In this document: piece after piece, positions 5,783 through 32,503 of the stretch
Position numbering within the stretch: the stretch's first letter is position 1
How the letters are laid out: the number at the start of each line of letters is the position of its first letter
Assembly: GCF_003838195.1 (NCBI RefSeq)
Contig: NZ_RCBY01000069.1
Location: forward strand, 1 to 32,973
Length of the DNA stretch: 32,973 nucleotides
Origin: Okeania hirsuta
GTDB lineage: Bacteria; Cyanobacteriota; Cyanobacteriia; Cyanobacteriales; Microcoleaceae
Reading direction: 5' to 3'
The notes under the pieces: model-generated
Told to the model about the DNA's origin: nothing
Database searches by the model: none
What the model saw: only the letters and a program-made list of their open reading frames with translations
Position numbers and translations under genes: made by a program

Positions 5783-7060
5783 TTATATCTTGTATTTACC
5801 ACCTTTATTAGGGTCACTCCAGTCACAAGCAAACCCCTTAGTTGCTGGAACAAATTGATTCCAAGGTATAGGTTTAATAGCTCCTTCAGTAGACCAAACT
5901 ATATTAAATAAACCATCATCACGAACTTGACCTATTCTCACAGTTTTAGAAATATGATGATTAGCATTCATAGTAACCAAACCTTCAGGAGCATCAAAAG
6001 TTTGTCCGATAGCTGCCATCCTTACCGCATCTAAATTATCAGTAGTACCAGCTTTTTCCACTGCTTGTTTCCAAAGATAAACCATAATATAAGCAGCTTC
6101 CATCGGGTCATTTGTTACTCGGTCTGCACCATATTTTGCCTTAAAATCTGCCACCCATTTTTTATTAGCTTCTGTCTCAACAGTTTGGAAATAATTCCAA
6201 GCAGCATAATGACCTATAAGAAACTCCTTACCAATTTGTCTAACTTCTTCCTCAGCAATACTCACCGACATAACTGGATATTGTTCCGGAGTCAGACCAG
6301 CACCTTTCAACTGTTTAAAAAAGGCAACATTACTATCACCATTAAGACTATTAAAAATCACTCCACCATTAGGTAAAGCCTGTTTAATCTTAGTAATAAT
6401 CGGAGTAACTTCCGTATTTCCTAAAGGTAAATAATCTTCACCAACAGTAGTACCACCTTTAGCTTTTAACTGCTCCTTAATAATCGTATTTGCAGTACGA
6501 GGAAAAACATAATCAGAACCAACTAAGAAAAATTCCTTTCCCTTATTTTCTAACAACCAATCTACAGCAGGTTCAATTTGTTGATTAGGAGCAGCACCCG
6601 TGTAAAAAATATTTTTCGAGCATTCTTGACCCTCATATTGCACCGGATACCAAAGCATATGATTCTTAGATTCAAAAACAGGCAAAACAGACTTCCGAGA
6701 AGCAGAAGTCCAACAACCAAAAACAGTAACTACCTGGTCTTGGTCAATAAGTTTATTAGCCTTTTCAGCAAAAGTAGGCCAGTCAGAAGCACCATCTTCT
6801 ACAATTGCTTCTATTTGCTTACCTAATACACCACCAGCAGCATTTATTTCCTCAATAGCTAACTTTTCCGCTTCAACTACCGTAGTTTCGCTAATTGCCA
6901 TTGTGCCACTGAGGGAATGGAGAATACCCACTTTAATTGTGTCAGCCCCAGATGTAGTGTTAGTGTTATTAGCACCACCACAAGCTTTGAGAAAAATACT
7001 CGTACCTAGAGCAGCAGAACTATAAATTAAAAATTTCCTGCGTTCTAATCCTTTAGCCAT
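5783..7060 (-). CDS. urtA: Urea ABC transporter substrate-binding lipoprotein UrtA
   Basis: Periplasmic urea-binding protein, 425 residues, of the type-I periplasmic binding fold. The N-terminus is basic (RRK), then hydrophobic, ending in a lipobox LKAC with the acylated Cys at 27. The mature protein starts with an Asn/Thr-rich linker and then [17 protein letters not shown]. UrtA-typical stretches include [48 protein letters not shown] and [13 protein letters not shown]. These separate it from general branched-chain amino-acid binding proteins. It is first in the urt transcription order. I found no convincing NtcA box (GTA-N8-TAC) in the 240 bp upstream, which instead contains a large imperfect palindrome. 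Confidence 0.95.
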
Positions 7061-7130
7061 AACAAAAATACTTCACTATAATTAATTTCAAACTTAACTT
7101 TACCAGGACTTAGGCACTTTTTAAGTTCCA

Positions 7131-7194
7131 AACACTATATATCTATAACGTTATAGTTTTTTCTCACTAGACTAGATATATAGATAGTGTTTTT
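7131..7194. promoter_or_regulatory. Nested palindromes upstream of urtA
   Basis: CTATAACGTTATAG (7143-7156) is a perfect 14-bp palindrome. Around it, AACACTATATATCTAT on the left is answered imperfectly by ATATATAGATAGTGTT on the right. This lies 70-135 bp upstream of the urtA start and could be an operator or a transcribed hairpin. No regulator can be assigned. Confidence 0.4.
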
Positions 7195-7299
7195 GAGTAA
7201 AACCCTCAGTATAGCCATCATTACTCAATAGTTGTCATTTTTGCCTTCTATTACTTCTTGCTAAGATTAGTTTAACTTTGATTTTAGCGTTGATGAATT

Positions 7300-8048
7300 A
7301 TGAACAAAAACAAATTGATAATTATCTGTTTATCAATAATTATATTAGTTTCAGTAGGGCTGAATTTCCTATTTTTTAGGAGTAGGAATTATTATTTACA
7401 ATTAAACTCTCTACAATTAAATCCACTTGCCATAAAATATTATCCGATTGATACTAATCCCAAAGAGGCTAAAAATCTCAATCAAAAAAAACTATATTTT
7501 TTTTTGGAGATTCTCGTGCCCGTGGTTGGAATTCACCTAAAGGTTTTGATGATTTTAATTTTGTTAATCGAGGAATTTATGGGCAAACTACAGGGCAAGT
7601 TTTAGGAAGATTGAATCAACATCTAAAACCTTTATCTCCGGATATTGTGATAGTTCAAGTTGGTGTGAATGATTTATACAGAATTCCAATATTTCCTGAG
7701 AATAAAGAGATAATTATTTATGACTGTAAATCAAATGTCAAAGAAATTGTCAAGCAATCTCGTCAGCTTGGTGCGGTTGTGATTCTGACAACTATTTTTC
7801 CTATTGCTGAAGTGCCACTTGAGAGAAAACTTTTTTGGTCGCCGGATGTAGAGTTAGCTATTAAGGAAGTGAATGATTTTATTTATTCTTTGGAAAACAA
7901 GGATGTGATAATTTTCGATACAAAAGCGATTTTGGCAAATGAACAAGGAAAAGTTAAGGAAGAATATAGTAGAGATTTTCTTCATCTTAATCGGGCAGGA
8001 TATAAAGCATTCAATGAAAAATTAATGCCTATTTTGAAAAGGTTATAG
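7300..8048 (+). pseudogene. SGNH/GDSL-family hydrolase interrupted by a frameshift at T9
   Basis: The first frame gives a short signal anchor (LIIICLSIIILVSVGLNFLFF). After the homopolymers A8 (7484-7491) and T9 (7497-7505) the correct frame moves: read from 7506, GDSRARGW follows directly. It continues VNRGIYGQTTGQVLGRLNQH, then VQVGVNDLYR and DFLHLNRAGYKAF. These are SGNH block I (GDS, nucleophile Ser), block III (GxND, oxyanion Asn) and block V (DxxH). The restored protein would be about 249 residues, N-terminally anchored and facing the periplasm, probably an esterase or acyl-hydrolase. Either one T is missing or two are extra. Slippage on T9 could also rescue expression. The gene diverges from urtA. 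Confidence 0.75.
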
Positions 8049-11700: not shown

Positions 11701-13052
11701 CGACTTTCCAAATCGTTTTTTACCCCCGAAGTTAGACATTTAATTAACTCATCCCCTGTTGCTGGAATATTTTCCAAATAATAACCAGCTTGTTGTAAAG
11801 CTTGAAGAATTTCTACACAACTAGCAGGAGTATCTAACCCGACTCCATTAGCAAGACGACCGTCACGATTAGGATAATTTGCTAATATTAATGCGATGCG
11901 ACGTTGAGATGCTGGAGTTTGTCGTAACTTTATCCAATTAGCAGCTAATTCTGACACAAATTCAATCCTATCTTGAACCGGAAAATAACTAATTACATCT
12001 GTTTCTAAATCCGAATTCCAAGTTTGAACCGCCTTAAAAGAAATTGCCCGACTAATAATATTTCCATCTACTTCTGGCAGTGCAATATTCATTGCCACAT
12101 CCCGTGGCGAAAGACCTTGAAACTGACTTTCCCACTGCTCAAAATTTCCACCACTAAAAATTACTTGTAAAACTGGAATGTCTAAATTTTTTCCCTGTCT
12201 TAGCAAGGGTGGGTTAGGAGATTTTTCCAGTGCAAAATCTTGATTATTCACAACAGAGACAGCAAAACTGGTCGTGTTTAACAATAATTGAATTGCTTCA
12301 GCATTTTCAGGTTGAAAATATTCCAATATTTCTCCCTGTACTTCTACATCTCTAGGAGAAGAAACAAAGACTGGTACAGGTTCTAAATTTTTTTCTATTA
12401 AAGCTTGGCAAAGAGCATCTATAGGAGCAACATTTCCAGATAGATAATGAGCGCGATAGAATAATATTCCGATTTTTGCTTTTGTGGTTTGCTCTTCTTT
12501 TTGCCAAGGATAAATTCCGACTCGCGACACTGGTATAGGTAAGGCAAAATCATAATCTTTTCCCAGACAAATATTAGCGATAAACTTGAGACCATTAACA
12601 AAATTATCTACCCCACCTTCTATTAAATATTGCCAGAATTGATTAACTAGAGAAATTGAAACATTAGAATGACTAATTAAATCTGGATCTGGGCGGTTAT
12701 CTCCAGGAATTACTATTAGTTTTGCCCCTTCTTTTTCGATCGCTTCTAGCAAGACTTCCAAACCATAAGACCAATAGGAGCGCCCCCCTAAAAGTCGAAC
12801 AATAATTACTTTTGCCTTAGATAAAATATCATCAGCATAAGTATCAATAGTTAACTGTTGTTGTAAGTGAAGTAAATTAGCAACTCGTAGTTGTGGAAAA
12901 TCAAAAGGTAACTTATTAACTGCTGCTGCTAATGTTTGAATATCCGTATCTGCTGCTGTTAAAAATATTATTGGTGCGGGAGTTTGTTCGATAAAAATTA
13001 CCCCTTCTGCTTGAGGGTTCCAACCACCAGGAGTAGCTGCTATTCGGTGCAT
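8694..13052 (-). CDS. cobN: Cobaltochelatase large subunit CobN, expanded by in-frame repeats
   Basis: Large subunit of the ATP-dependent aerobic-type cobaltochelatase (CobN/ChlH superfamily), which inserts cobalt into the corrin ring in B12 synthesis. It begins MHRIAATPGGWNPQAEGVIF, the cyanobacterial CobN start. Strong signatures include IHVGKHGNLEWLPGKS, FIVNDPGEGSQAKRRSQA, GAPTRGRPDVLPTGRNFYS, SVWGTSTMRTGGDDIAEALA and MRHGYKGAFEMAATIDYLF. Usual length is about 1250-1300; this protein has 1452. The surplus sits in a 39-residue duplication (about residues 494-574), a four-unit 31-residue array (about 740-870) and a small proline-rich insert (about 274-288). All are in frame and lie between conserved blocks. 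The final residues (ENLEFRI) come from a GAATTCT tandem repeat. No cobalamin riboswitch was found upstream. Confidence 0.95.
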   Translation of the reverse strand: MHRIAATPGGWNPQAEGVIFIEQTPAPIIFLTAADTDIQTLAAAVNKLPFDFPQLRVANLLHLQQQLTIDTYADDILSKAKVIIVRLLGGRSYWSYGLEVLLEAIEKEGAKLIVIPGDNRPDPDLISHSNVSISLVNQFWQYLIEGGVDNFVNGLKFIANICLGKDYDFALPIPVSRVGIYPWQKEEQTTKAKIGILFYRAHYLSGNVAPIDALCQALIEKNLEPVPVFVSSPRDVEVQGEILEYFQPENAEAIQLLLNTTSFAVSVVNNQDFALEKSPNPPLLRQGKNLDIPVLQVIFSGGNFEQWESQFQGLSPRDVAMNIALPEVDGNIISRAISFKAVQTWNSDLETDVISYFPVQDRIEFVSELAANWIKLRQTPASQRRIALILANYPNRDGRLANGVGLDTPASCVEILQALQQAGYYLENIPATGDELIKCLTSGVKNDLESRELRPVFQSLSLAEFETYFASLPQVVQEKIIQRWGNINDRDFVMANTYFATDVQINSTKIPPSLEKDVSSNFSEFQKDNQKKENDENFATDVQINSTKIPPSLEKYISSNFSEFQKDSEVKEIDNFPIPGIQLGNIFVGIQPSRGYDIDPSLNYHAPDLEPTPNYLAFYYWLREKFQIDAIIHVGKHGNLEWLPGKSVGLSQECFPEIALGALPHFYPFIVNDPGEGSQAKRRSQAVIIDHLTPPMTRAELYGPLQQLETLIDEYYEAQNLDPSRLSVIRDRIINLIETEGLDKDLSFLGNNLDSSSSSFPSREKFSIEVEVLNQDLSFLPKDLDFSESSFQSRDKFFIEVEALNQNLSFFPQDLDSLSPSSKNRDKFFIELESLNQDFCFLLKDLDSPQLPLKKREKIEKDENTRFSELITNADGYLCELKEAQIRDGLHIFGQCPQERQLRDLIIAITRHPSTTRLGLTRALAEDLNLDFDPLTDDFSTIIDENLIMDGKVCRTVGDAVELLEQKAANLVENLINQNQINSPFQQTNKELEWIRQKLLPSLQKTDQEIINLLIGLDGKYIPSGSSGAPTRGRPDVLPTGRNFYSVDIRAIPTETAWRVGQLAAENLIERYTQENGEYPQTLGLSVWGTSTMRTGGDDIAEALALLGVKPVWDRPSRRVIDFEILPVSILGRPRVDVTLRISGFFRDAFPNIIDLFDQAVIAVANLDEPETENPLAAQVKKEVKYWQELGLTETQAKARSHYRIFGSKPGAYGAGLQGLIESQNWQDDQDLARAYINWSGYAYTGINNSYNQEARAINSPEAFSQRLKEMQIVLHNQDNREHDLLDSDDYYQFQGGMTVAVRALTGKNPHTYFGDNSMAENPKVRQLKEQIARVYRSRVVNPKWIAGVMRHGYKGAFEMAATIDYLFAYDATAKCVEDFMYQGVAETYIFDENVQSFIQGKNPWALRDMAERLLEANQRGLWQSANQKILDKLQAIALEAEGIIENLEFRI
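10485..10845 (-). repeat. Four-copy 93-bp in-frame array within cobN
   Basis: Translated units are about 31 residues: DKDLSFLGNNLDSSSSSFPS..., NQDLSFLPKDLDFSESSFQS..., NQNLSFFPQDLDSLSPSSKN... and NQDFCFLLKDLDSPQLPLKK.... The first three end R-[DE]-K-F-[SF]-I-E-[VL]-E-x-L. The period of 93 bp preserves frame. The last unit ends in SPQLPLKKRE, which corresponds to a dispersed cyanobacterial short repeat (CTCCCCAACTCCCCTTAAAA) on the coding strand. Confidence 0.85.
11347..11570 (-). repeat. 117-bp in-frame tandem duplication within cobN
   Basis: TATCTTTCTGAAATTCTG occurs at 11351 and again at 11468, a period of exactly 117 bp (39 codons). The encoded copies share FATDVQINSTKIPPSLEK and SSNFSEFQKD with very few differences, so the duplication is recent. 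Confidence 0.85.
12187..12229 (-). repeat. Dispersed palindromic repeat inserted in frame in cobN
   Basis: It encodes EKSPNPPLLRQGKN between FAL and LDIPVLQ. This peptide is the translation of a short repeat common in cyanobacterial intergenic DNA (CCTAACCCACCCTTGCTAAG type). Insertion inside a coding region without loss of frame is like the palindromic elements known in Rickettsia proteins; that comparison is mine. Confidence 0.6.
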
Positions 13053-24635: not shown

Positions 24636-26040
24636 TTGAGTTTTAATCCAGACTTATGTCGCAATGAAAGCGAAGTAGAAAGTAAACTAATTGTTAGTTA
24701 TCTACTGCCAAAATTAGGATACGGTATCGAACATTGACATCAAGAACTAACTTTGGGTAGTATCCGTTTAGACTTTTTATCATTTGCTGTCCAGAAGTTA
24801 CCTTTTCGTTTAGATGGAGATTCTCCATTGAGTTTAGTTATGGAGGCAAAACATCCGAGAGAAAATTTAGACCGCCATCAACGAAAACTGAGGCATTATT
24901 TAACAAGTATAAATGTAAAATATGGGTTGTTAACTAATGCTAAATAAATTAGGATTTATCAAAGAGACAGAAATCAGATTGAGTTAATTTTTAGTTGTTT
25001 GGGAATTGAAATTGATGACAAAATAGAAGAAATTAAAAAAATAGTAGGTCGAGACTATTTGCGTCAAAAAGAGAGTTGTAATATACCAGAAACTCCGGTA
25101 GAAAAAGCAGGTGTAAGTGAGGCGATCGCTACTCAATCTGAGACAAAAGAAATTGTTAGCAATATTCCCGAAAATCAGGAAAACTTAGTAAACATTGAAA
25201 CAGAGTCTAATCCAATTAATCAAGGTAGGATAAATTCTATGAAAGTAATTGCTGTCTATCACAATAAAGGTGGAGTTGGAAAAACGACAACAGTGGTTAA
25301 TTTAGCTGCCGCTTTGAGTAAAAAAGGTTATCAAGTTATTGTTATTGATTTAGATAGTCAGGCGAATACAACTTTTGCGACAGGTCTAATTAAATTTGAT
25401 GATGAACAATTTGATGATATCAAAGACTCTTATATTTATCATGTGTTGAGATACGATGAATATTCTAGTATTCCAGAAGTAGCTAGAGCTTCTAGGTTTA
25501 ATAATCCAGAAGTAGATGTAATTCCTTCTCATATAAATTTAATGGATCTTGAAGGTGAGTTAAACGGTCTGAGAAGTACTCAAACTGCGCTAATAAAAAA
25601 ACTAAAATTTGTCTAATAAAAATATGATATTGCCCTGATAGATACACCACCTTCTTTGAATTTGTATGCCTTTGTTCCCCTAGTTAGTGCTAACTATTTA
25701 ATCATTCCTTCAGACTTAAAACCATTTGCTAATCAAGGTTTATCTAATGTTAAAAATTATCTTCAGCGAGATGTTAACCGTTTTAGACAAATGATGAATA
25801 AACCAGACATAGAAATATTAGGTGTACTGCCTTGTAAAATTAACCCTAACAATAGATTTGTACAATATACATTACCAAAACAGATTCAAGCAGTTTCTCA
25901 ACGTTACGAGCTTAATGTTATGGAAACAGTCTGGAGAAAACTTAACTTGGGAAAATCTTAAACAACAAACTAAAAAGGGAATTGGTTTCGGGAAAACAAC
26001 CTACGAAAAACTCAGAAAAATAGCATATATACCAGAATAG
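24636..26040 (+). pseudogene. HsdR-N-like nuclease domain fused to a ParA ATPase, multiply interrupted
   Basis: One frame runs from TTG 24636 (SFNPDLCRNESEVESKLIV) to 25961. It is broken by TGA at 24735 (expected Trp in EHWHQELTLGSIRLDF), TAA at 24945 (expected Glu in NAKEIRIYQRDRN) and TAATAA at 25614-25619. A frameshift near 25935 moves to a frame ending at 26040. Residues 1-140 resemble the type I restriction HsdR N-terminal PD-(D/E)XK domain (GSIRLDF...VMEAKHP, the D and E-x-K residues). A charged linker follows, then a ParA/MinD ATPase from 25239: YHNKGGVGKTTTVVNLAAAL, VIDLDSQANTTF, IALIDTPPSLNLY and IPSDLKPFANQGL. The architecture looks like a cyanobacterial family of unknown function. 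Because most lesions are single substitutions, decay is recent. Confidence 0.75.
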
Positions 26041-26084
26041 AAAGTAGCGATCGCATTCCCTCACACCAAAAATACCAAGTATCC

Positions 26085-26396
26085 GTAGGTTGGGTTGAGT
26101 GCGACTCGTTGGGTCAAAGAAGCCATGACTGCAACATGACCCTTTAACCAAAAGGTTAAAAACTTATACCCTATGCAGGTTCAATTCCTCCCCTCTCAGC
26201 TAGGGAGTGACTTCGCAGCTCAGGTTTAATGGGTTAACAACCATTACTCGAGGGTGCATGGGCTAAAAGCGGATAAGCCTGAAGGACTAAGGACGATACT
26301 GCCAGAGAAGTAAGTCTTGGTGAAGAACATGAATCCTGTCAAACGTTTCCTACAGAATGCTGCGCAAACGCTAACACTTCGTTCTACCCAACCTAC
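26085..26396 (+). ncRNA. Probable HEARO RNA (IscB omega-RNA) without IscB, inside an inverted repeat
   Basis: The outer arms are GTAGGTTGGGT (26085-26095) and ACCCAACCTAC (26386-26396), the ends of a palindromic repeat common in cyanobacteria. The inside is GC-balanced and structured: TTTAACC-AAAA-GGTTAAA (26143-26160), CTCCC...GGGAG near 26188-26207, and AGGACT pairing with AGTCTT around ACGATACTGCCAGAGAAGTA (26285-26320). The tail ATGAATCCTGTCAAACGTTT (26328-26347) resembles, from memory, the 3' part of the HEARO RNAs that lie upstream of IscB nucleases. No IscB reading frame follows. The element end lies only 12 bp from the stop of the nuclease-like gene at 26409. Confidence 0.5.
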
Positions 26397-26408
26397 TTTT
26401 GATAACTC

Positions 26409-27320
26409 CTACCAATCCCTATCAAAAAAACTCTGACACTTTTCCCTCTGAGGACAAATATCGCATAAATACTCATGCTCCGTTGCTGGAGGTGGGTCTG
26501 GTTGAGACTCCTCCCACCTTAACCACACCCGCATCTCCTGTAACTTAGCAGGAATTAAACTCTCCACCATATTCTCAAGTTTTTCCCATGAATAATGATA
26601 CTCTCCAAACTCAGGCAAAACCCAATAAACAACCGCATTAACAGGCACTTTTTTCTTTTGCTTCAGTAGAAAACTATACAAAGCAACCGCCATTAACTGA
26701 GACGATACTTCTACAGTTTCATAAGTCTGATAATTAACCACACATAAACGACGATACTCAAAATCAAAAATTAAATTATTAACTTTTCCTGTTAACTTTT
26801 GATTCTCACCATCTGGTATTTTAAAAGTATAATCTAGTAGTATTTCCCTTGTAATTAATGTGCGACGAACTACAATACTTTCATGGCAGTAACGCCGATT
26901 TTTAACAATAATTTTAGATATATTTAAAATTAGTTTAATTAAGACCTGCCAACTTTGATAGAGTGCTGTTGCTAGACTAGAATCCTTTGTAATTATTGTG
27001 TCTAAATAAGGAAAGAAAATCAACTCATAAAATAATTGTTGTATTTGATTAGCGATCACTTCTACCATCAATTCCTCAAACTTCCCCTTAAACAAAGCTT
27101 GAATCCTAGATTCTTCTCTAATCATATTAATCAACTGATTAGCTAAGTCGAGAAAAGCACTATCAATTTCCTGGATATAATCTTTTGGCAAAAATATATG
27201 GTCGCCCCCAAAACGTTGTTTGAGATAAAATAAACGCGGGCACTCAAAAGCAACTTTAACATTGGTAACACTGAATGGGGGAGACTGTAGTTGAGGTTTA
27301 TTAGTTATTGGCATTGACAA
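26409..27320 (-). CDS. PD-(D/E)XK / Fe-S (Cas4/AddB-like) protein with altered catalytic residues
   Basis: 303 residues. C27 (FECPRLFYLK) and C286, C289, C295 (CDICPQREKC) form the four-cysteine pattern of Cas4/AddB-type nucleases that hold a 4Fe-4S cluster. Between them LTGKVNNLIFDFEYRRLCVV (176-195), then NYQTYE, corresponds to the RecB-like motif G-x-[IV]-D...[VI]-[DE]-Y-K-T. Here the D is N181, the second acid is N196 and the lysine is Q198. The helix motif Q208...Y215 is present. So the fold and cluster seem kept but catalysis is probably lost; it may act as a structural or DNA-binding partner. It is on the same strand as the ATPase gene upstream (124 bp gap) and probably co-transcribed. 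Confidence 0.75.
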   Translation of the reverse strand: MSMPITNKPQLQSPPFSVTNVKVAFECPRLFYLKQRFGGDHIFLPKDYIQEIDSAFLDLANQLINMIREESRIQALFKGKFEELMVEVIANQIQQLFYELIFFPYLDTIITKDSSLATALYQSWQVLIKLILNISKIIVKNRRYCHESIVVRRTLITREILLDYTFKIPDGENQKLTGKVNNLIFDFEYRRLCVVNYQTYETVEVSSQLMAVALYSFLLKQKKKVPVNAVVYWVLPEFGEYHYSWEKLENMVESLIPAKLQEMRVWLRWEESQPDPPPATEHEYLCDICPQREKCQSFFDRDW

Positions 27321-27444
27321 ACTATCCTGATTTTCCAGGTTTTTAAGCAGTTAAGATCACTAAAAAAATTTCAAAAACTATCAGTTTGATCTACTAAATA
27401 TTGATTTTAATTTATCGTTCCTAACTTTAATTAAATGTTCGTTA

Positions 27445-29448
27445 TTAAATAGGAATAAAACAAACTAGTTTTCGATCTAATTTTGATGTAGGAGTAATAT
27501 TTTTGATTTTCTGTTCTCCTTCAAGTTCCTCAATAATTGTATAAATTTTTGACTGCTCTATGTTAATAAATTTATTTAGTGTATTTTCAATTATGTTTTT
27601 GCGCTCCATAAAACATTCTGTTTTAATTAAATTTACCACAAAATCCTTCACCTCATCTAAATCTGATAAATCTGAATCGCTTTGTTGTTCTTGATTATCT
27701 GTTGAGTCAACTACAGATAAATCTCGTAATAGACTACAACTGTTTAAAATCTGTGATTCACAAATTATTTCTTCTAACTCTTTGAGACTAATAATCTTAC
27801 CTTCAATCATTAATTCATTAGCTAGAGCAGCATTCACCAAACTATGATATGTAGCCAAAAAATATACAGATTTCAGGTTGGGCTGAATATGACAATTTTT
27901 CAACCTACCCTTAAAAATTTTTCTATATATTCTATTGCTCATATTTTTGGCATTTCCAACCTCAGCAGCTCTCACTAGATATAAAGTTTGGCATAAACTT
28001 TTATCTGCCACTTTCTGGCAAGCATTCATAGTATTATAAAAACTATTCATATTTTTATCTTCTGTCCAAACAACACCGATAATTCCCTCTTTATTTTGTT
28101 GTTGATAGCTCAAAGAATGACTAGCATATTTACCGCTTAATAATTTAGTTTTTACCTCTTTACATTCTACAGCAATTAATACTTCTTGTAGCATTCTAAT
28201 CAATTCTTGTGCTGCAAAATCGGTAATTTTATTAATTTTTTTCTGAGTTTTTTGATATTTATCTTGCCAAATTAATTTAAAAGTTTCTAATTTTGTTTCT
28301 GGTGTTAATTTTTGGACATTTCCTGACTCATATAATAATTTGTTTTTGTATCGATCGTATTCCTTACGTCCCAATTCCAATATATTACGAGGCAGAGTTT
28401 TACCTCTAGAAAACTTCTGTTCTAATATTTCTGTTGACAAAGGAAATATAGGTGATTTAGGCTTTGGTTTTGCCAGAGAATGCAAAGGGATCAAACGAGC
28501 TGCCAATATTGCTTTTCCCTGTTCTAAAGTAATTGGTTTAAGATGAAAATATCCAGCATTTACTCTAGTTTTATCTGCAGGTTGAATCCATTCATAATTT
28601 TGTTTCCATGTACTCGTAATAATACTAATAATTATCAGAAAATTTTGTGGACAATGAGTATGAATACTAGAATTGACATTAAATAATGCTTGTAAATCTA
28701 ACGAGCCATCCAATAACCGAGGAATATTATCAAGATTATCAAAACATAAAATAATCGGTTGAGATGCAGCCGAAATAATTCCCAAATTCGTCATAATTTT
28801 CTGAGCAGAATCTTCAGAATCTATACTACTTTTAATTCCCAAAGATTTTAAATCATCTTCGTCCAAATTGTCCCCCCGTAACCACTCACAAGCAATCGAT
28901 ATGTAATTTGAATTTAACAGATGATAAAAGGCGCTGAAAAAATCATTAGGATTATAAATTCCAGAAGAATAAATACCTTTGAGATTTCTAATAAATACTT
29001 TTCTTTCACCAATAATTTTTTGGAATAAACTACTATTTTGTGAATCTAGTAGACCTTTTAACCATAGTAACAACTGAGAATCTGTTTGACCCTCTGGAGT
29101 TTTCATCAGAGAGTCTACTGTTTGACGCAAAATATGACGCCAAATGTAATCACTATCAGGCCAAGGATCAATATAAACGAAAAAAGCTTTTGTGTTGAAT
29201 AATTTTTTGATTCTTCCTAAAAGATAACTTTTACCAGAACCAGAGTCACCAGTCAGTATCAAAGTTCGGGGACGATTTTCCTGGGCAACCTGCTCTAGCA
29301 CTGTTTCTATATCAGAGATAATATTTTGATGGATAGAATCGACATTCCAGTTAGGATTTTGTTGCTCTTGCCAAAAATTAATAGTATAAAGAGTTACTTG
29401 ATCGAAAGGATTGGTTTCTCTTTGAATAATCTGATCTATAGATGTCAT
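27445..29448 (-). CDS. Large P-loop ATPase with C-terminal winged-helix-like domain
   Basis: 667 residues. Walker A GDSGSGKS (67-74), Walker B-like IILCFDNLDN (232-241), then a sensor-like stretch IIISIITSTWKQNYEW, as in AAA/STAND-type ATPases that act on DNA or proteins. It begins TSIDQIIQRETNPFDQVTLY, which looks like the anchor sequence of AAA proteins loading onto partners. The middle (about 400-560) has a domain with VECKEVKTKLLSGKYASHSL and ACQKVADKSLCQTLYLVRAA. The final 75 residues (DEVKDFVVNLIKTECFMERK, IYTIIEELEGEQKIKNITP) look like a winged helix. I do not know the family's function. It lies between the Cas4-like gene and the winged-helix gene, all on one strand. Confidence 0.75.
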   Translation of the reverse strand: MTSIDQIIQRETNPFDQVTLYTINFWQEQQNPNWNVDSIHQNIISDIETVLEQVAQENRPRTLILTGDSGSGKSYLLGRIKKLFNTKAFFVYIDPWPDSDYIWRHILRQTVDSLMKTPEGQTDSQLLLWLKGLLDSQNSSLFQKIIGERKVFIRNLKGIYSSGIYNPNDFFSAFYHLLNSNYISIACEWLRGDNLDEDDLKSLGIKSSIDSEDSAQKIMTNLGIISAASQPIILCFDNLDNIPRLLDGSLDLQALFNVNSSIHTHCPQNFLIIISIITSTWKQNYEWIQPADKTRVNAGYFHLKPITLEQGKAILAARLIPLHSLAKPKPKSPIFPLSTEILEQKFSRGKTLPRNILELGRKEYDRYKNKLLYESGNVQKLTPETKLETFKLIWQDKYQKTQKKINKITDFAAQELIRMLQEVLIAVECKEVKTKLLSGKYASHSLSYQQQNKEGIIGVVWTEDKNMNSFYNTMNACQKVADKSLCQTLYLVRAAEVGNAKNMSNRIYRKIFKGRLKNCHIQPNLKSVYFLATYHSLVNAALANELMIEGKIISLKELEEIICESQILNSCSLLRDLSVVDSTDNQEQQSDSDLSDLDEVKDFVVNLIKTECFMERKNIIENTLNKFINIEQSKIYTIIEELEGEQKIKNITPTSKLDRKLVCFIPI

Positions 29449-29685
29449 ACTATAAACTGGTAATATTTTTTGGACTGGTTAGAGAATTACGATAGCAGAT
29501 ATAGGAAAATTGGTGTTGCTGAAGCGCGTGTATGATATTAATCTTAATGATTTAGGAGTCAGGAGTCAGGAGGGAAGAAAGAGTAGTAGAAGGAGAAGGT
29601 TTTTTGTTCACGCTCTTATCCATTAGCGTAGCTCCCCCGGAGGGGACACAGGATATTATACCTCAAATCACCAACACCGGAAAAT
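29449..29685. other. Spacer with AGGAGTC repeats
   Basis: AGGAGTCAGGAGTCAGGAGG at 29553-29572 is a 7-bp tandem repeat. GTAGCTCCCCCGGAGGGGAC near 29630-29648 is a palindromic dispersed repeat of cyanobacterial type. No gene. Confidence 0.55.
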
Positions 29686-30507
29686 TTAGTAGGGAATTAT
29701 AAAAAACAAACTTCCACCAATATCTTGAGGTATACCTGCTTCAAATTGTTCTGGAGTGTAGGAGCTTACTTCTTGTAAGGAGCTTAATTCTATCTGGTCA
29801 CTTTTTTCTAGACGGTAAAGTGCTAGATCTAGTTCTTCTCTAGATAAAGGAGGTTGTAATTTGTGTCGCAGATGAAAAATGGGTAGATAGTTATTTGTGC
29901 CTAGATTTTGGTCTAAATCTCGAATCACAGCTAAAATCTCAGAGTCAGTGGGTTGATCAGGCATCTTGGAAAACTGCTGTTTTTCTTGTTTAGGGAAGTA
30001 AAGCGAACAGTTAGTACGCATTAAATCAAGATAGTCGCTTAACATTTTTAAGGATATCTCTTTTGCAGTGCTGCGAGAAGAATATTCTTGGCACAAAAAT
30101 TGCTTTCCTTTTTCTGTCAACCAAACATCTTTGATTTTTTGATCTATAACTTTAATCAAACCTTGCTGTAGTAAGTCTGTGATAACAGCTTTCCTATAGC
30201 TAGTATCAAGACCAGTCTCCGCTGGAGAAATAGCAGCTTTAGCAGTTGCTTTGAGCACTTTCAATTCTTCGGTGGTAAGTAAGTTAACAGCTTTTTTATT
30301 ATTTAGGAGTGATTTTCCTTGAGGTGCTATATTAATTTTTGTAACTTCTCCAGTAAATTTTACCAACCCTCGATCGCAAAGTCTGGAGCAAATTTCATTT
30401 TTCTCAGAGACCTTCATTTCAGACTCTAGTTGAATTTTAGTAAAAGATACTTGATAATTTTTATAGCTCAGTAATTTTAATAGAAATTTTAAATCCTTAA
30501 CATCCAT
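29686..30507 (-). CDS. Winged-helix DNA-binding-like protein
   Basis: 273 residues, no membrane segment. It seems to consist of repeated winged-helix modules. Module one is MDVKDLKFLLKLLSYKNYQV with EKNEICSRLCDRGLVKFTGE; module two is LTTEELKVLKATAKAAISPA with KAVITDLLQQGLIKVIDQKI and VWLTEKGKQFL. A C-terminal module (residues about 195-273) has DSEILAVIRDLDQNLGTNNYLPIFHLRHKL in part, then LSREELDLALYRLEKSDQIE. The pattern of two or three wHTH domains suggests DNA or ATPase-partner binding. It is transcribed toward the ATPase gene (237 bp apart) and diverges from the ParB-like gene 870 bp away. Function unknown. Confidence 0.75.
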   Translation of the reverse strand: MDVKDLKFLLKLLSYKNYQVSFTKIQLESEMKVSEKNEICSRLCDRGLVKFTGEVTKINIAPQGKSLLNNKKAVNLLTTEELKVLKATAKAAISPAETGLDTSYRKAVITDLLQQGLIKVIDQKIKDVWLTEKGKQFLCQEYSSRSTAKEISLKMLSDYLDLMRTNCSLYFPKQEKQQFSKMPDQPTDSEILAVIRDLDQNLGTNNYLPIFHLRHKLQPPLSREELDLALYRLEKSDQIELSSLQEVSSYTPEQFEAGIPQDIGGSLFFIIPY

Positions 30508-31381
30508 GCGATCGTCTGTTCCTCACTTGCAAAAATCAACCAATTAATATTATTATTAATCAGATAGGTACACCTTGACTATTTTTTGCAAAAAAGTTAA
30601 AAAATAACTACAGATATTTGGATGGAGTAATGCGATCGCTCCCTGATATGGCCATAAAATCTACTGCCATAAGCTAATTTAATTCAGAGTAATTGAAGCA
30701 GAGCGCCATTCCTACAATCCTAACTGGGTAATACCTAGTCAAAATTGTAGTCTTAAAGTGATAACTGCAACAAAAGGTAGTATAGCAAGGAACGAGTTGG
30801 TCAGGACTTATGTTAATGATGAACCGTAAGACAGAGAAATACTTTTCCCATGCGTCTGTCCCACCCCGCGGGGTCACACCGCTGTTCCCTGCTATAAGTG
30901 TTGACTGAGTTCATAGCAAAAAATCAATTGCTACTAAGATGATAAATTATTTGTCTTCCATAGTCAATGAAAGTATGCTAAAGTAACTTTGTGAAAGTAA
31001 AATCTGGGTAAGAAAAAAAATAAACTAAGGCATAGCAAAAACTAACAAGTTCAAAAAGTAATGTTGGAGATCGTACTTACTTATAGCTGTATGAATTTCT
31101 AGCCTGAGAATTAATTATAATTTCCCAGATTATGCAATAATCATAAGTCCTGTTTGGCAGCACTAAGCAGTTTGCTCACCTCCCGACACTTAATCCTATT
31201 TTATCAAACTGTGATGAAATTATGGTTTTTCCAATAGCTGTAATAGCTGGAAATCTTGAATTTATCATCAAAAGTGATAAATGAGGAGCCACAAAAAAAA
31301 TGTAACCGGGAGAATGCTATCTAGGCAGTATTAGCCCAAAACCTTTATTTGATTTTAGGAACCAAGGAAAGTTGAAAGCAA
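30508..31381. promoter_or_regulatory. Divergent intergenic region of the wHTH and ParB-like genes
   Basis: Apart from the family B element at 30781-30896 there is no gene. A hairpin TTTATCA/TGATAAA lies at 31261-31281, followed by AATGAGGAGCC. The ParB-like start at 31382 is preceded by AAGGAAAG. The region must hold the divergent promoters; a site bound by the ParB-like protein could lie here but none is recognisable. Confidence 0.45.
30781..30896. mobile_element. MITE-like family B element, 116 bp
   Basis: TATAGCAAGGAA (30781-30792) and TTCCCTGCTATA (30885-30896). AACGAGTTGG, then CGTAAGACAGAGAAATA, match in reverse the copy at 19250-19363. It contains a GACCCCGCGGGG-type palindrome near 30865-30875. 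Confidence 0.7.
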
Positions 31382-32503
31382 ATGGTTTCATCAACGAAGC
31401 GAAAAAATCGACAAGAAGATTTACCAGTACAACCAGTAAGTTTGGAATTGACTCCCATATCCCAAATCACTGTACCAGACTCTCAGGTAAGAGATATTCC
31501 TGCTGAAAGACATGAAGCTCTAGTTAAGAGTCTTTCTGAACAAGGCAGTAACTTAATCCCATTAATTGTGAGATTGACAGATCATGACGATTCCGAGCAG
31601 CAATACGAAATAGTTCGTGGTGCTGATTGGTATCAAGTTGCAAAAGAAGCTGAAATCAAGGAACTATGGGCCTGGATTTATGAAATGACAGATGAACAAG
31701 CAAAGATAGCTGTGGCAGAGATAGAGCAGTTAACTCAACCACCTGTTGTAGAAACACCAGACTTTGAGCATCTAATGCAACAACTTGAGGTATCATTCGA
31801 TAAAAAAGTAGATTCTCTCACAAAAAAAATCGATCAATCTATCAAGAAAAATGAGGAGGTACTCAAAAAACAAGTAAAATCTTTGCAGGTTCGAGGGACG
31901 GATGTTGTTCAAATTGAACAGCTCAAAAATTTGATTACAAATCTAGAAAATTCAGTTAACGATAAGGTAGAAAAATTGGCAAGAAAAATCACAAGCTCAA
32001 CAACAAATAAAACAACCTCTAATTCTTTATCAGGAGTGAATGTGGACTTATTATCAAAACAACTTGACGATCTCGATAAACAAATAGAGAAAAAACTGGA
32101 AGGAATTGTCAAAACAATTAATCAGTTCTCCCAGTTAGTTCAAGATATTGAAGATGACTTAAAAACTCAAGTATCTGCGGTTCGGCGTCAATTACAAACA
32201 ATACCAGAAGCCACTTCTACCGAAGAAGTTGCAACTAAAGCTGAGACACCGCGTAAGACAACAACCAAGAGTAAACCAAGTTCTACATCATCAAGGTCTA
32301 AGTCGAGTACAACAAAAACTACTACTAGAAAGACTAAAGCTCAAGCTGCTGCAGAACCAGAAGTTCCCATTGATGATTATGATACCAAATCACTCAGACA
32401 ACTGAAGAAAATTGCCCAAGAGCGGAAACTTCGTGGCTATGCGCGTATGAAACGTCCTGAAATTCTCAAAGCTCTCCGAGAAGCTGACGCTGCTGCTAGT
32501 TAG
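31382..32503 (+). CDS. ParB-like N-domain, coiled coil and Rho-N/SAP-like C-terminus
   Basis: 373 residues in three parts. Residues 18-120: ParB/Srx-like domain (LELTPISQITVPDSQVRDIP, HEALVKSLSEQG, PLIVRL, YEIVRGADWYQVAKEAEIKE). The usual GERR box of CTP-using ParB is GADW here, so CTPase activity is doubtful. Residues about 125-275: coiled coil rich in K, D, E and I. Residues 285-325: Ser/Thr/Lys-rich linker (TTTKSKPSSTSSRSKSSTTK). Residues 328-373: DDYDTKSLRQLKKIAQERKL with GYARMKRPEILKALREA, like the Rho-N/SAP fold that binds nucleic acid. It looks like a DNA-binding clamp or adaptor rather than a partition ParB. It diverges from the wHTH-ATPase-nuclease cluster. Confidence 0.8.
   Translation: MVSSTKRKNRQEDLPVQPVSLELTPISQITVPDSQVRDIPAERHEALVKSLSEQGSNLIPLIVRLTDHDDSEQQYEIVRGADWYQVAKEAEIKELWAWIYEMTDEQAKIAVAEIEQLTQPPVVETPDFEHLMQQLEVSFDKKVDSLTKKIDQSIKKNEEVLKKQVKSLQVRGTDVVQIEQLKNLITNLENSVNDKVEKLARKITSSTTNKTTSNSLSGVNVDLLSKQLDDLDKQIEKKLEGIVKTINQFSQLVQDIEDDLKTQVSAVRRQLQTIPEATSTEEVATKAETPRKTTTKSKPSSTSSRSKSSTTKTTTRKTKAQAAAEPEVPIDDYDTKSLRQLKKIAQERKLRGYARMKRPEILKALREADAAAS

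Follow-up and report, generated by a model that had tools for sequence, protein, structure and literature searches.

Described systems of comparable make-up

The closest described counterparts of the locus are the 'Orc/CDC6-coupled HerA/FtsK capture systems', which were predicted in 2024 to act as anti-invader machines (PMC10853773). According to that publication, these systems comprise an Orc/CDC6 AAA+ ATPase with an extra domain before its C-terminal winged helix, a protein of 2-4 winged helices, an active nuclease and a HerA/FtsK motor; one set carries an FtsK-alpha domain, which is linked there to cellular FtsK, and in some a 3'-5' exonuclease is fused to the motor. BREX-Related Capture systems (PMC12839542) likewise join a HerA/FtsK motor to two partners, an AAA+ protein of ORC/Cdc6 type and a DNA-binding protein with a winged helix, but are built on PglZ, DUF6079, GNAT and TGT, none of which was matched here. 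The SspFGH/DndFGH systems (PMC8092258) share a three-gene logic of Walker-A ATPase, second protein and FtsK-like translocase. In the DNA end-resection pair HerA-NurA, an FtsK/HerA-type motor is coupled to a nuclease.

The locus in Okeania hirsuta

The window, i.e., the whole stretch of 32,973 nucleotides that was analysed from Okeania hirsuta (contig NZ_RCBY01000069.1), contains the following features.

29686..30507, minus strand: triple winged-helix protein (gene 1), 273 aa, predicted winged-helix units at residues about 3-60, 79-130 and 188-272
27445..29448, minus strand: Orc/Cdc6-like AAA+ ATPase (gene 2), 667 aa, Walker A GDSGSGKS, Walker B LCFDN
27811..28227, minus strand: alpha-beta domain of gene 2, following the AAA+ core and preceding the C-terminal winged helix (model secondary structure)
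27448..27672, limits approximate, minus strand: C-terminal winged-helix-like tail of gene 2 (model secondary structure, mapped by eye via alignment)
26409..27314, minus strand: stand-alone Cas4-like PD-(D/E)XK domain (gene 3), four cysteines, catalytic site lost
31382..32503, plus strand: ParB_N, coiled-coil and Rho_N protein, a neighbour (Pfam, distribution)
24999..25961, plus strand: ParA gene, a neighbour, split into two ORFs (24999-25616 and 25656-25961)

A first-pass annotation had described four intact genes in a window full of broken ones. All four ORFs are open throughout; breakage was found in the adjacent ParA gene, the sole one checked, which is a single ORF in four same-genus relatives versus two in the window genome. 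The Cas4-like ORF spans 26409-27320 from a TTG codon, and an alternative ATG start at 27314, giving 301 aa, may be the true one. No Rfam matches were obtained.

Domain structure of the three minus-strand proteins

The domains named in the first-pass annotation were largely recovered. In the AF2 model of the gene 1 product (pLDDT 82.4) the helix/strand pattern of a winged helix recurs three times, although a pTM of only 0.47 leaves the mutual order of the units unsure; winged-helix matches in Pfam were weak, as were all Foldseek matches of the model, none of which reached E 0.001. The gene 2 product has the expected P-loop, with AAA_16, AAA_22 and KAP-like matches in Pfam, and its winged-helix-like tail is visible C-terminally in the predicted secondary structure. 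An orthologue from a relative (locus L041), 54% identical to the window ATPase, gave a model of pLDDT 85.5 and pTM 0.87, for which ORC/Cdc6 chains were the top PDB matches in Foldseek (E 4.5e-5, prob 1.00), with a TM over the target of about 0.4 and with other AAA+ proteins following, also below E 0.001. By its predicted fold the window ATPase is Orc/Cdc6-like. Walker A is present in all 115 ATPase rows. The alpha-beta domain that precedes the tail shows in the model the order H-E-E-E-H-E-H-E, as in restriction-endonuclease folds, without a (D/E)xK motif; no credible sequence match to it was found in PDB or Pfam, and none to a REase. An inactive restriction-endonuclease fold is putative for this domain; it is read from predicted secondary structure, and this was counted against the main reading given below.

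Members of the Cas4 family carry one N-terminal and three C-terminal cysteines around a PD-(D/E)XK core. The window protein resembles Cas4 nucleases in both its core and its four cysteines. Its direct match to PDDEXK_1 is weak (E 0.0011, 19.4 bits, under the Pfam gathering score of 22), and the fold is clear through homology to three relatives that match the same family at 5e-15 to 3e-12. The altered active site reported earlier was confirmed: where relatives have GxxD...(D/E)xK, the window protein reads GKVN...VNYQ, and thus lacks the catalytic D...(D/E)xK of Cas4 nucleases. The four cysteines are intact here and in all 17 rows of the Okeania/Trichodesmium clade, and an Fe-S cluster would be expected from them.

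The full module in relatives

Unlike Cas4 nucleases, the Cas4-like domain of the relatives belongs to a motor protein. Among 91 distinct loci, a chosen set whose fractions are not prevalences, there are 57 in which it forms the middle of a single protein of ~850 aa, composed of exonuclease, Cas4-like, FtsK-alpha and FtsK regions. For the fusion of L041, the Pfam matches were FtsK_SpoIIIE (6e-42), DNA_pol_A_exo1 (4.2e-26), PDDEXK_1 (5.3e-15) and FtsK_alpha (2.5e-6), and the PADLOC Cas4 profile matched at 6e-7. The motor is visible in 61 of the 91 loci, and in 90 of them a winged-helix gene precedes an ATPase gene of the same orientation. The usual module, as read from sequence, is wHTH - Orc/Cdc6-like ATPase - [DEDD 3'-5' exonuclease - Cas4-like nuclease - FtsK-alpha - FtsK motor]. 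The 91 loci were drawn from 20 picked stretches, the window and a further 79 loci, which came from the best 80 among 206 confirmed stretches; eight duplicates and L052 were removed. In the literature, no paper on an exonuclease-Cas4-FtsK fusion was found among the matches listed.

In a sample of 244 genomes from the phylum, each of the 23 genomes that encode the Cas4-FtsK protein had the ATPase and the winged-helix gene as well, and in 20 of the 23 the Cas4-FtsK gene adjoins the ATPase gene. The ATPase itself, above 500 bits, was confined to 30 of the 75 genomes of the order and found in none of the other 169; this limit was chosen after a clear gap appeared (569 vs 72 bits), and of 37 genomes the 7 with weaker matches were dropped. 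Within the order, membership of which was taken from a listing arranged by kinship, the fusion occurs in 23 of the 30 genomes with the ATPase vs none of the 45 without it, and the wHTH gene in 28 of 30 vs 1 of 45. The fusion count left out 32 of 55 genomes, in which nothing more than exonuclease matches, fragments, FtsK proteins of another kind or, for the window, the Cas4 domain was present; 3 of the 23 retained (G131, G151 and G186) have no exonuclease part. The wHTH count omitted G240, G197 and G076 (164, 78 and 31 bits), the first two lying outside the order with stops within the match, and kept G183 (150 bits, at a contig start).

The catalytic residues of the module are well conserved outside the Okeania/Trichodesmium clade. 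GxxD and (D/E)xK were found in 65 of 66 Cas4 rows, the DEDD residues of the exonuclease in 66 of 66 rows (5 being separate exonuclease genes) and the Walker A motif of FtsK in 63 of 63, all counted with duplicates still in. Partial forms also exist: FtsK fragments in G059 and G076, and the exonuclease alone in G224. The conserved unit, on comparison of these loci, is the triple winged-helix protein, the Orc/Cdc6-like ATPase and the Cas4-like protein, and the window Cas4-like gene is, by its relationship to them, a relic of the fusion.

The gene neighbourhood was surveyed in 93 records (the 91 loci, one duplicate and L052). A GT4 glycosyltransferase homologue lies within the fetched stretch in 43 of these, for the most part in one orientation. 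The Cas4 tree follows families, with 33 changes against a minimum of 27 and a shuffled mean of 53, in a test that mixed NCBI names with group codes and left out 6 of 76 rows. Because of this neighbourhood and the family-like tree, the data argue for mostly vertical inheritance of the module. Such a pattern is unusual for a mobile defence system, and it was counted against the main reading given below. A phage or virus origin was considered, and neither phages nor viral contigs gave a match, which was likewise counted against the main reading.

Comparison with the described systems

The first-pass annotation knew of no named system with this combination of genes. For the ancestral module this is incorrect, as it fits the Orc/CDC6-coupled HerA/FtsK capture systems, a kind already known, from computation only; the annotation's guess at an anti-invader complex agrees with the prediction made for such modules in PMC10853773. 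Shared features are the Orc/CDC6-type AAA+ ATPase (L041 model) and a protein with three winged-helix units, within the 2-4 range. The alpha-beta domain of the ATPase may correspond to the inactive REase domain of those systems: it has a fitting place and helix/strand order and no catalytic motif, and no REase was matched by its sequence. The cyanobacterial module differs in its nuclease, which is Cas4-like with four cysteines, and in its neighbourhoods, which look mostly stable, those of the described systems being called mobile in that paper. The window clade differs further in having no motor, exonuclease or active nuclease. The terms 'Cas4' and 'cyanobacteri' are absent from the main text of PMC10853773, and cyanobacterial members may be in its supplementary data.

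Resemblance to SspFGH is limited. The FtsK region of L041 was matched by the PADLOC SspH profile (2.1e-67), but this similarity is confined to the motor of the fusion, the SspF match to the ATPase spans 45-56 P-loop residues, and neither SspG nor DndG appeared among the matches listed. A specific link to phosphorothioation within the order was rejected on the distribution of DndC, a result that was also counted against the main reading: DndC occurs in 24 of 26 module genomes, but is common throughout the order (65 of 75, vs 1 of the other 169), with 28 of 30 ATPase-bearing genomes vs 37 of 45 others (p 0.30), and where DndC and the ATPase share a contig they lie >80 kb apart. The nucleases of HerA-NurA are different from those of the module. 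In contrast to that pair, the module nucleases are fused in one protein, alongside which the triple winged helix and Orc-like ATPase are encoded; the window has no motor.

Loss of motor and catalysis in Okeania and Trichodesmium

The exonuclease and motor are gone in all 11 Okeania/Trichodesmium loci, window included, and the catalytic GxxD and (D/E)xK in all 17 clade rows (11 distinct loci). The solo Cas4-like domains form one clade in the tree (support 100/100, stem 0.68). In the genome of the window, the fusion matched, beyond the window gene, only a separate 208-aa ORF (36% to the exonuclease, E 7.9e-8), and the best FtsK match, at 23.3 bits, did not reach the cut-off of 24 bits. On these results the idea that motor or exonuclease had been split off and are encoded elsewhere in the genome was rejected. 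Two clade members, G002 and G021, have FtsK matches of about 45 positions that barely pass the cut-off, with 24.8 and 25.7 bits, respectively, which was counted against the main reading. Twelve stretches were searched for leftover DNA of the exonuclease or motor and gave six matches with E 0.009 to 0.40, none of them between the ATPase and Cas4-like genes or directly after the latter.

What remains has been retained under constraint. Open frames cover the matches in the window and 10 further clade loci, and the Walker motifs are kept. For the clade Cas4-like domain, none of the 55 pairs has a dN/dS of 1 or more, and the median is 0.33, i.e., selection is purifying, if relaxed: the partners have 0.21 and 0.20 and the active fused domains elsewhere 0.19, a difference that counts against the main reading, as does the lower dS of the dead domain (0.28 vs 0.51 and 0.72). 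The genes are loosely spaced in this clade, so that joint transcription is only putative, a further point against the main reading: profile matches lie as much as 1144 bp apart, with distances of 244 and 173 bp in the window.

Possible functions of the armed and disarmed forms

We favour, with somewhat better than even confidence, the reading that the window carries a derived, disarmed DNA-binding remnant of a cyanobacterial translocating nuclease module, kept for sensing or regulation. The full machine probably destroys foreign DNA. In it, the target would be marked by the triple winged-helix protein together with the Orc-like ATPase, an ATP-dependent switch or loader; the FtsK motor would pump the duplex; and the two nucleases would degrade DNA, most likely foreign, caught replicating, entering or segregating. 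In the window, the winged-helix protein, the ATPase and the catalytically dead Cas4 domain may still assemble on DNA, without translocation or cutting, as a DNA- or redox-sensing regulator or as a sensor passing DNA to nucleases encoded elsewhere.

It is possible, if rather unlikely, that the full module is instead a housekeeping machine for DNA-end processing or chromosome handling, like HerA-NurA, in cyanobacteria often without another FtsK motor, and that the window holds its reduced remnant. The recurrent glycosyltransferase neighbourhood and family-like tree speak for this, as do the 23 of 39 genomes (own included) with no FtsK match above 26 bits and the FtsK-alpha domain, linked in PMC10853773 to cellular FtsK; yet the ATPase is present in only 30 of the 75 genomes of the order and, above 500 bits, in none of the other 169, repeated truncation or partial loss does not look essential, and one copy of the ATPase and Cas4-FtsK genes resides on a conjugative plasmid. 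Decay of the window genes as a pseudo-operon heading for loss, with no present function, would account for the lost motor, exonuclease and catalytic residues, the widened gaps, the selection weaker than in active forms and the broken ParA, but is quite improbable in view of the open frames, the dN/dS below 1 in every pair and the intact cysteines.

The first-pass annotation had further treated the ParB/Rho-N gene as a fourth member. Its domains were correctly recognised, ParB_N and Rho_N both being over the Pfam cut-off, and the other three genes do adjoin each other in distant genera, but the ParB gene mostly fails to accompany them outside the window's family. Of the 93 records, 15 have a homologue within the stretch fetched, namely the window clade, L115 (Hydrocoleum), L043 (G012), L135 (Oscillatoria princeps) and L146 (Leptolyngbyaceae). 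Among the 39 genomes, however, they occur in four without an ATPase match (G014, G017, G022 and G023) and are absent from all eight same-order genomes with a strong one (G025-G028, G030, G031, G034 and G038), and in G010 and G021 the ParB gene is broken while the remaining three are open. A fourth subunit is unlikely on this distribution, in spite of the homologues that L135 and L146 have close to the ATPase; the gene is most likely a mere neighbour, and a single chromosome-organisation system of all four genes has only a very slight chance of being correct.

Implications

The predicted anti-invader class would gain a well-bounded cyanobacterial family, in which an exonuclease-Cas4-FtsK protein is combined with an Orc-like ATPase and a triple winged helix. 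Comparison of its armed and disarmed forms may separate the parts that recognise DNA from those that merely destroy it. One clade provides a natural experiment, having dropped motor and catalysis while selection still acts on the remainder, and one may ask what purpose a disarmed machine serves. Trichodesmium is an important marine nitrogen fixer. There is a small chance that a machine for shredding invader DNA was turned into a host factor in Okeania and Trichodesmium, a new DNA-binding complex of nuclease-dead Fe-S Cas4 domain, Orc/Cdc6-like ATPase and triple winged-helix protein that would sense DNA damage or redox state, or act on the host chromosome during its replication or segregation.

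Genes of the window and their surroundings

The window is one contig of an 8.8-Mb cyanobacterial genome, and the four genes that the first-pass annotation had grouped as an intact cluster all proved to be open reading frames:

26409-27320, minus strand, Cas4-like ORF, intact; weak PD-(D/E)XK match (Pfam)
27445-29448, minus strand, ATPase ORF, intact; AAA_16/AAA_22/KAP-like P-loop ATPase (Pfam)
29686-30507, minus strand, winged-helix ORF, intact; weak winged-helix matches (Pfam)
31382-32503, plus strand, ParB/Rho-N ORF, intact; ParB_N and Rho_N above cut-off (Pfam)

For the three minus-strand proteins, NCBIfam gave nothing near cut-off, and PADLOC matches were weak and local only. Elsewhere in the window, the ParA gene (24999-25961) is split into two ORFs; in four same-genus relatives (loci L033-L036) it is uninterrupted (489-534 aa), with a ParB-like gene after it that is split in L035. 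A 341-bp sequence at 26060-26400, probably a small mobile-element remnant, has a second copy (~293 bp, 89% identical) on contig C165 of the same genome, a further 83-bp piece on C116, and at least 35 short matches of 23-58 bp (40 of 278 candidates scored).

Architecture in relatives

In relatives, the Cas4-like region forms the middle of a ~850-aa protein, in the order 3'-5' exonuclease, PD-(D/E)XK, FtsK-alpha and FtsK motor. Among 91 distinct loci, this exonuclease-Cas4-FtsK fusion occurred in 57, Cas4-FtsK without a full exonuclease in 4, and the Cas4-like domain alone in 11, which constitute the Okeania/Trichodesmium clade, window included. A wHTH-ATPase-ATPase operon without a nuclease was found in 9 (L044, L045, L112, L113, L117, L119, L135, L142 and L156), and the remaining 10 were partial, 7 of them flagged at the stretch end.

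Several individual arrangements were also observed. A wHTH-ATPase-ATPase module directly precedes a nuclease-bearing module in L042, L136, L144 and L145, that of L136 being without the exonuclease. In L048 (11508-14873) a Ser/Thr protein kinase domain is inserted between the exonuclease and a degenerate Cas4 domain of the fusion, alongside an intact stand-alone Cas4 gene (6925-7788). The Cas4 domain of Hormoscilla L091 (12948-15822) is interrupted, a short piece (12948-13046) being followed after ~2 kb by the remainder, and in genome G224 (C10:168149-168694) only the exonuclease part is left beside the ATPase, a reduction unlike that of the window.

Co-occurrence and distribution

The winged-helix gene, the ATPase and the Cas4-like gene form a conserved unit. 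Of 39 genomes searched at E 1e-5, the window's own among them, 24 have an ATPase match, in some cases a weak one. In 20 stretches drawn around ATPase matches, tblastn with the window proteins located the winged-helix gene in all 20 and a Cas4-like match in 17. Across a phylum sample of 244 genomes (own included; ATPase counted above 500 bits), the ATPase was present in 30, the Cas4-FtsK protein in 23 and the winged-helix gene in 29, with all carriers inside one order (75 genomes sampled). Within that order the fusion accompanied 23/30 genomes with the ATPase versus 0/45 without (Fisher p 1.7e-13), and the winged helix 28/30 versus 1/45 (p 3.8e-17), related genomes not being independent. By coordinates, the fusion adjoins an ATPase in 20 of 23 genomes (exceptions G085, G131 and G257). 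A collection-wide scan (best 80 of 206 confirmed stretches) yielded at least 79 loci, all cyanobacterial by title, including Leptolyngbya, Nodosilinea and Oculatella. The proposed four-gene grouping holds for three members; by its distribution, the ParB/Rho-N gene most likely lies outside the module, while two more distant loci with a ParB neighbour point toward membership.

The probably disarmed Cas4-like gene

The altered active site suspected in the first-pass annotation was borne out. Catalytic residues are kept in none of the 17 window-clade rows (aligned sequences, duplicates included) versus 65 of 66 Cas4 rows elsewhere, and all four cysteines are kept in 17/17. The sole exception outside the clade is a fused Cas4 domain in G028, whose locus also has an intact stand-alone Cas4. 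The 11 clade rows form one group in the tree (support 100/100) on a long stem. The dN/dS ratio of the clade gene was below 1 in 55/55 pairs, with a median of 0.33, higher than those of its two partners (0.21 and 0.20) and of active fused Cas4 domains from 19 other loci (0.19); selection is purifying but relaxed. Median dS within the clade was 0.28 for this gene (26409-27314 in the window), lower than the partners' 0.51 and 0.72.

The ATPase-to-Cas4-like gap in the clade (median 609 bp, 173-1033) is about as large as a lost exonuclease; in 49 canonical loci the gap before the exonuclease has a median of 36 bp (3-1027). In 12 stretches searched for exonuclease or motor DNA, no remnant was recognised in that gap or just after the Cas4-like gene. 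Within the window's own genome, the fusion's only matches are the Cas4-like gene itself and a 208-aa exonuclease ORF encoded separately (36%), and no FtsK motor exceeded the cut-off. Judged from sequence, the Cas4-like gene of the window is a relic of the exonuclease-Cas4-FtsK protein.

Predicted structures

The ATPase orthologue of L041, a fused relative, was modelled at pLDDT 85.5 and pTM 0.87, and its nearest solved folds were ORC/Cdc6 chains. The AAA+ core is separated from the C-terminal winged helix by a domain (helix/strand order H-E-E-E-H-E-H-E, without (D/E)xK) for which sequence searches gave nothing credible; the model suggests an inactive restriction-endonuclease fold. After the Walker-B aspartate, 109 of 115 ATPase rows have N or Q in place of E (4 rows unmatched by the pattern); hydrolysis may accordingly be slow and behaviour switch-like. 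The winged-helix protein of the window was modelled with three winged-helix units (pTM 0.47); matches to solved structures were weak.

Relation to known systems and possible role

A 2024 comparative study (PMC10853773) presents capture systems in which a HerA/FtsK motor works with an Orc/CDC6 ATPase. This ATPase has an inactive REase ahead of its C-terminal winged helix, and a protein of 2-4 winged helices and an active REase accompany it; the motor of one set includes FtsK-alpha, and some systems have a fused 3'-5' exonuclease. Interception of invading DNA is the role proposed there. The relatives of the window genes match this feature list, their inactive REase domain being a putative one, so the module belongs to a kind already known from computational description; in the window two defining features are missing, and its form is probably a disarmed variant. 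SspFGH, which according to PMC8092258 damages phage DNA, is built on a comparable three-gene plan; its SspH profile matches the FtsK motor of the module, but the remaining parts do not match. A link to phosphorothioation failed its control, DndC being common throughout the order regardless of the module. DndC is nearly universal there (65/75 genomes versus 1/169 other sampled genomes over cut-off; own-genome instance G000:C57:56958-58289).

Against a purely mobile defence role of the module stand its recurrent neighbourhood, with a GT4 glycosyltransferase homologue in 43/93 stretches and GT2 in 29/93, and a Cas4 tree that follows families. Against a housekeeping role stand its patchy presence (ATPase in 30/75 genomes of the order), its recurring truncations, and a Pseudanabaena PCC 7367 conjugative plasmid that carries both the ATPase and Cas4-FtsK, the sole record with the ATPase among 72,556 plasmid records. 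Upstream of the winged-helix gene, L041-type loci in several families hold glycosyltransferase homologues, most of which point the same way.

In the complete module, the winged helices and the Orc-like switch would mark DNA, the FtsK motor would pump it, and the two nucleases, presumably of opposite polarity, would degrade it. In the Okeania/Trichodesmium clade, marking or sensing alone would remain.
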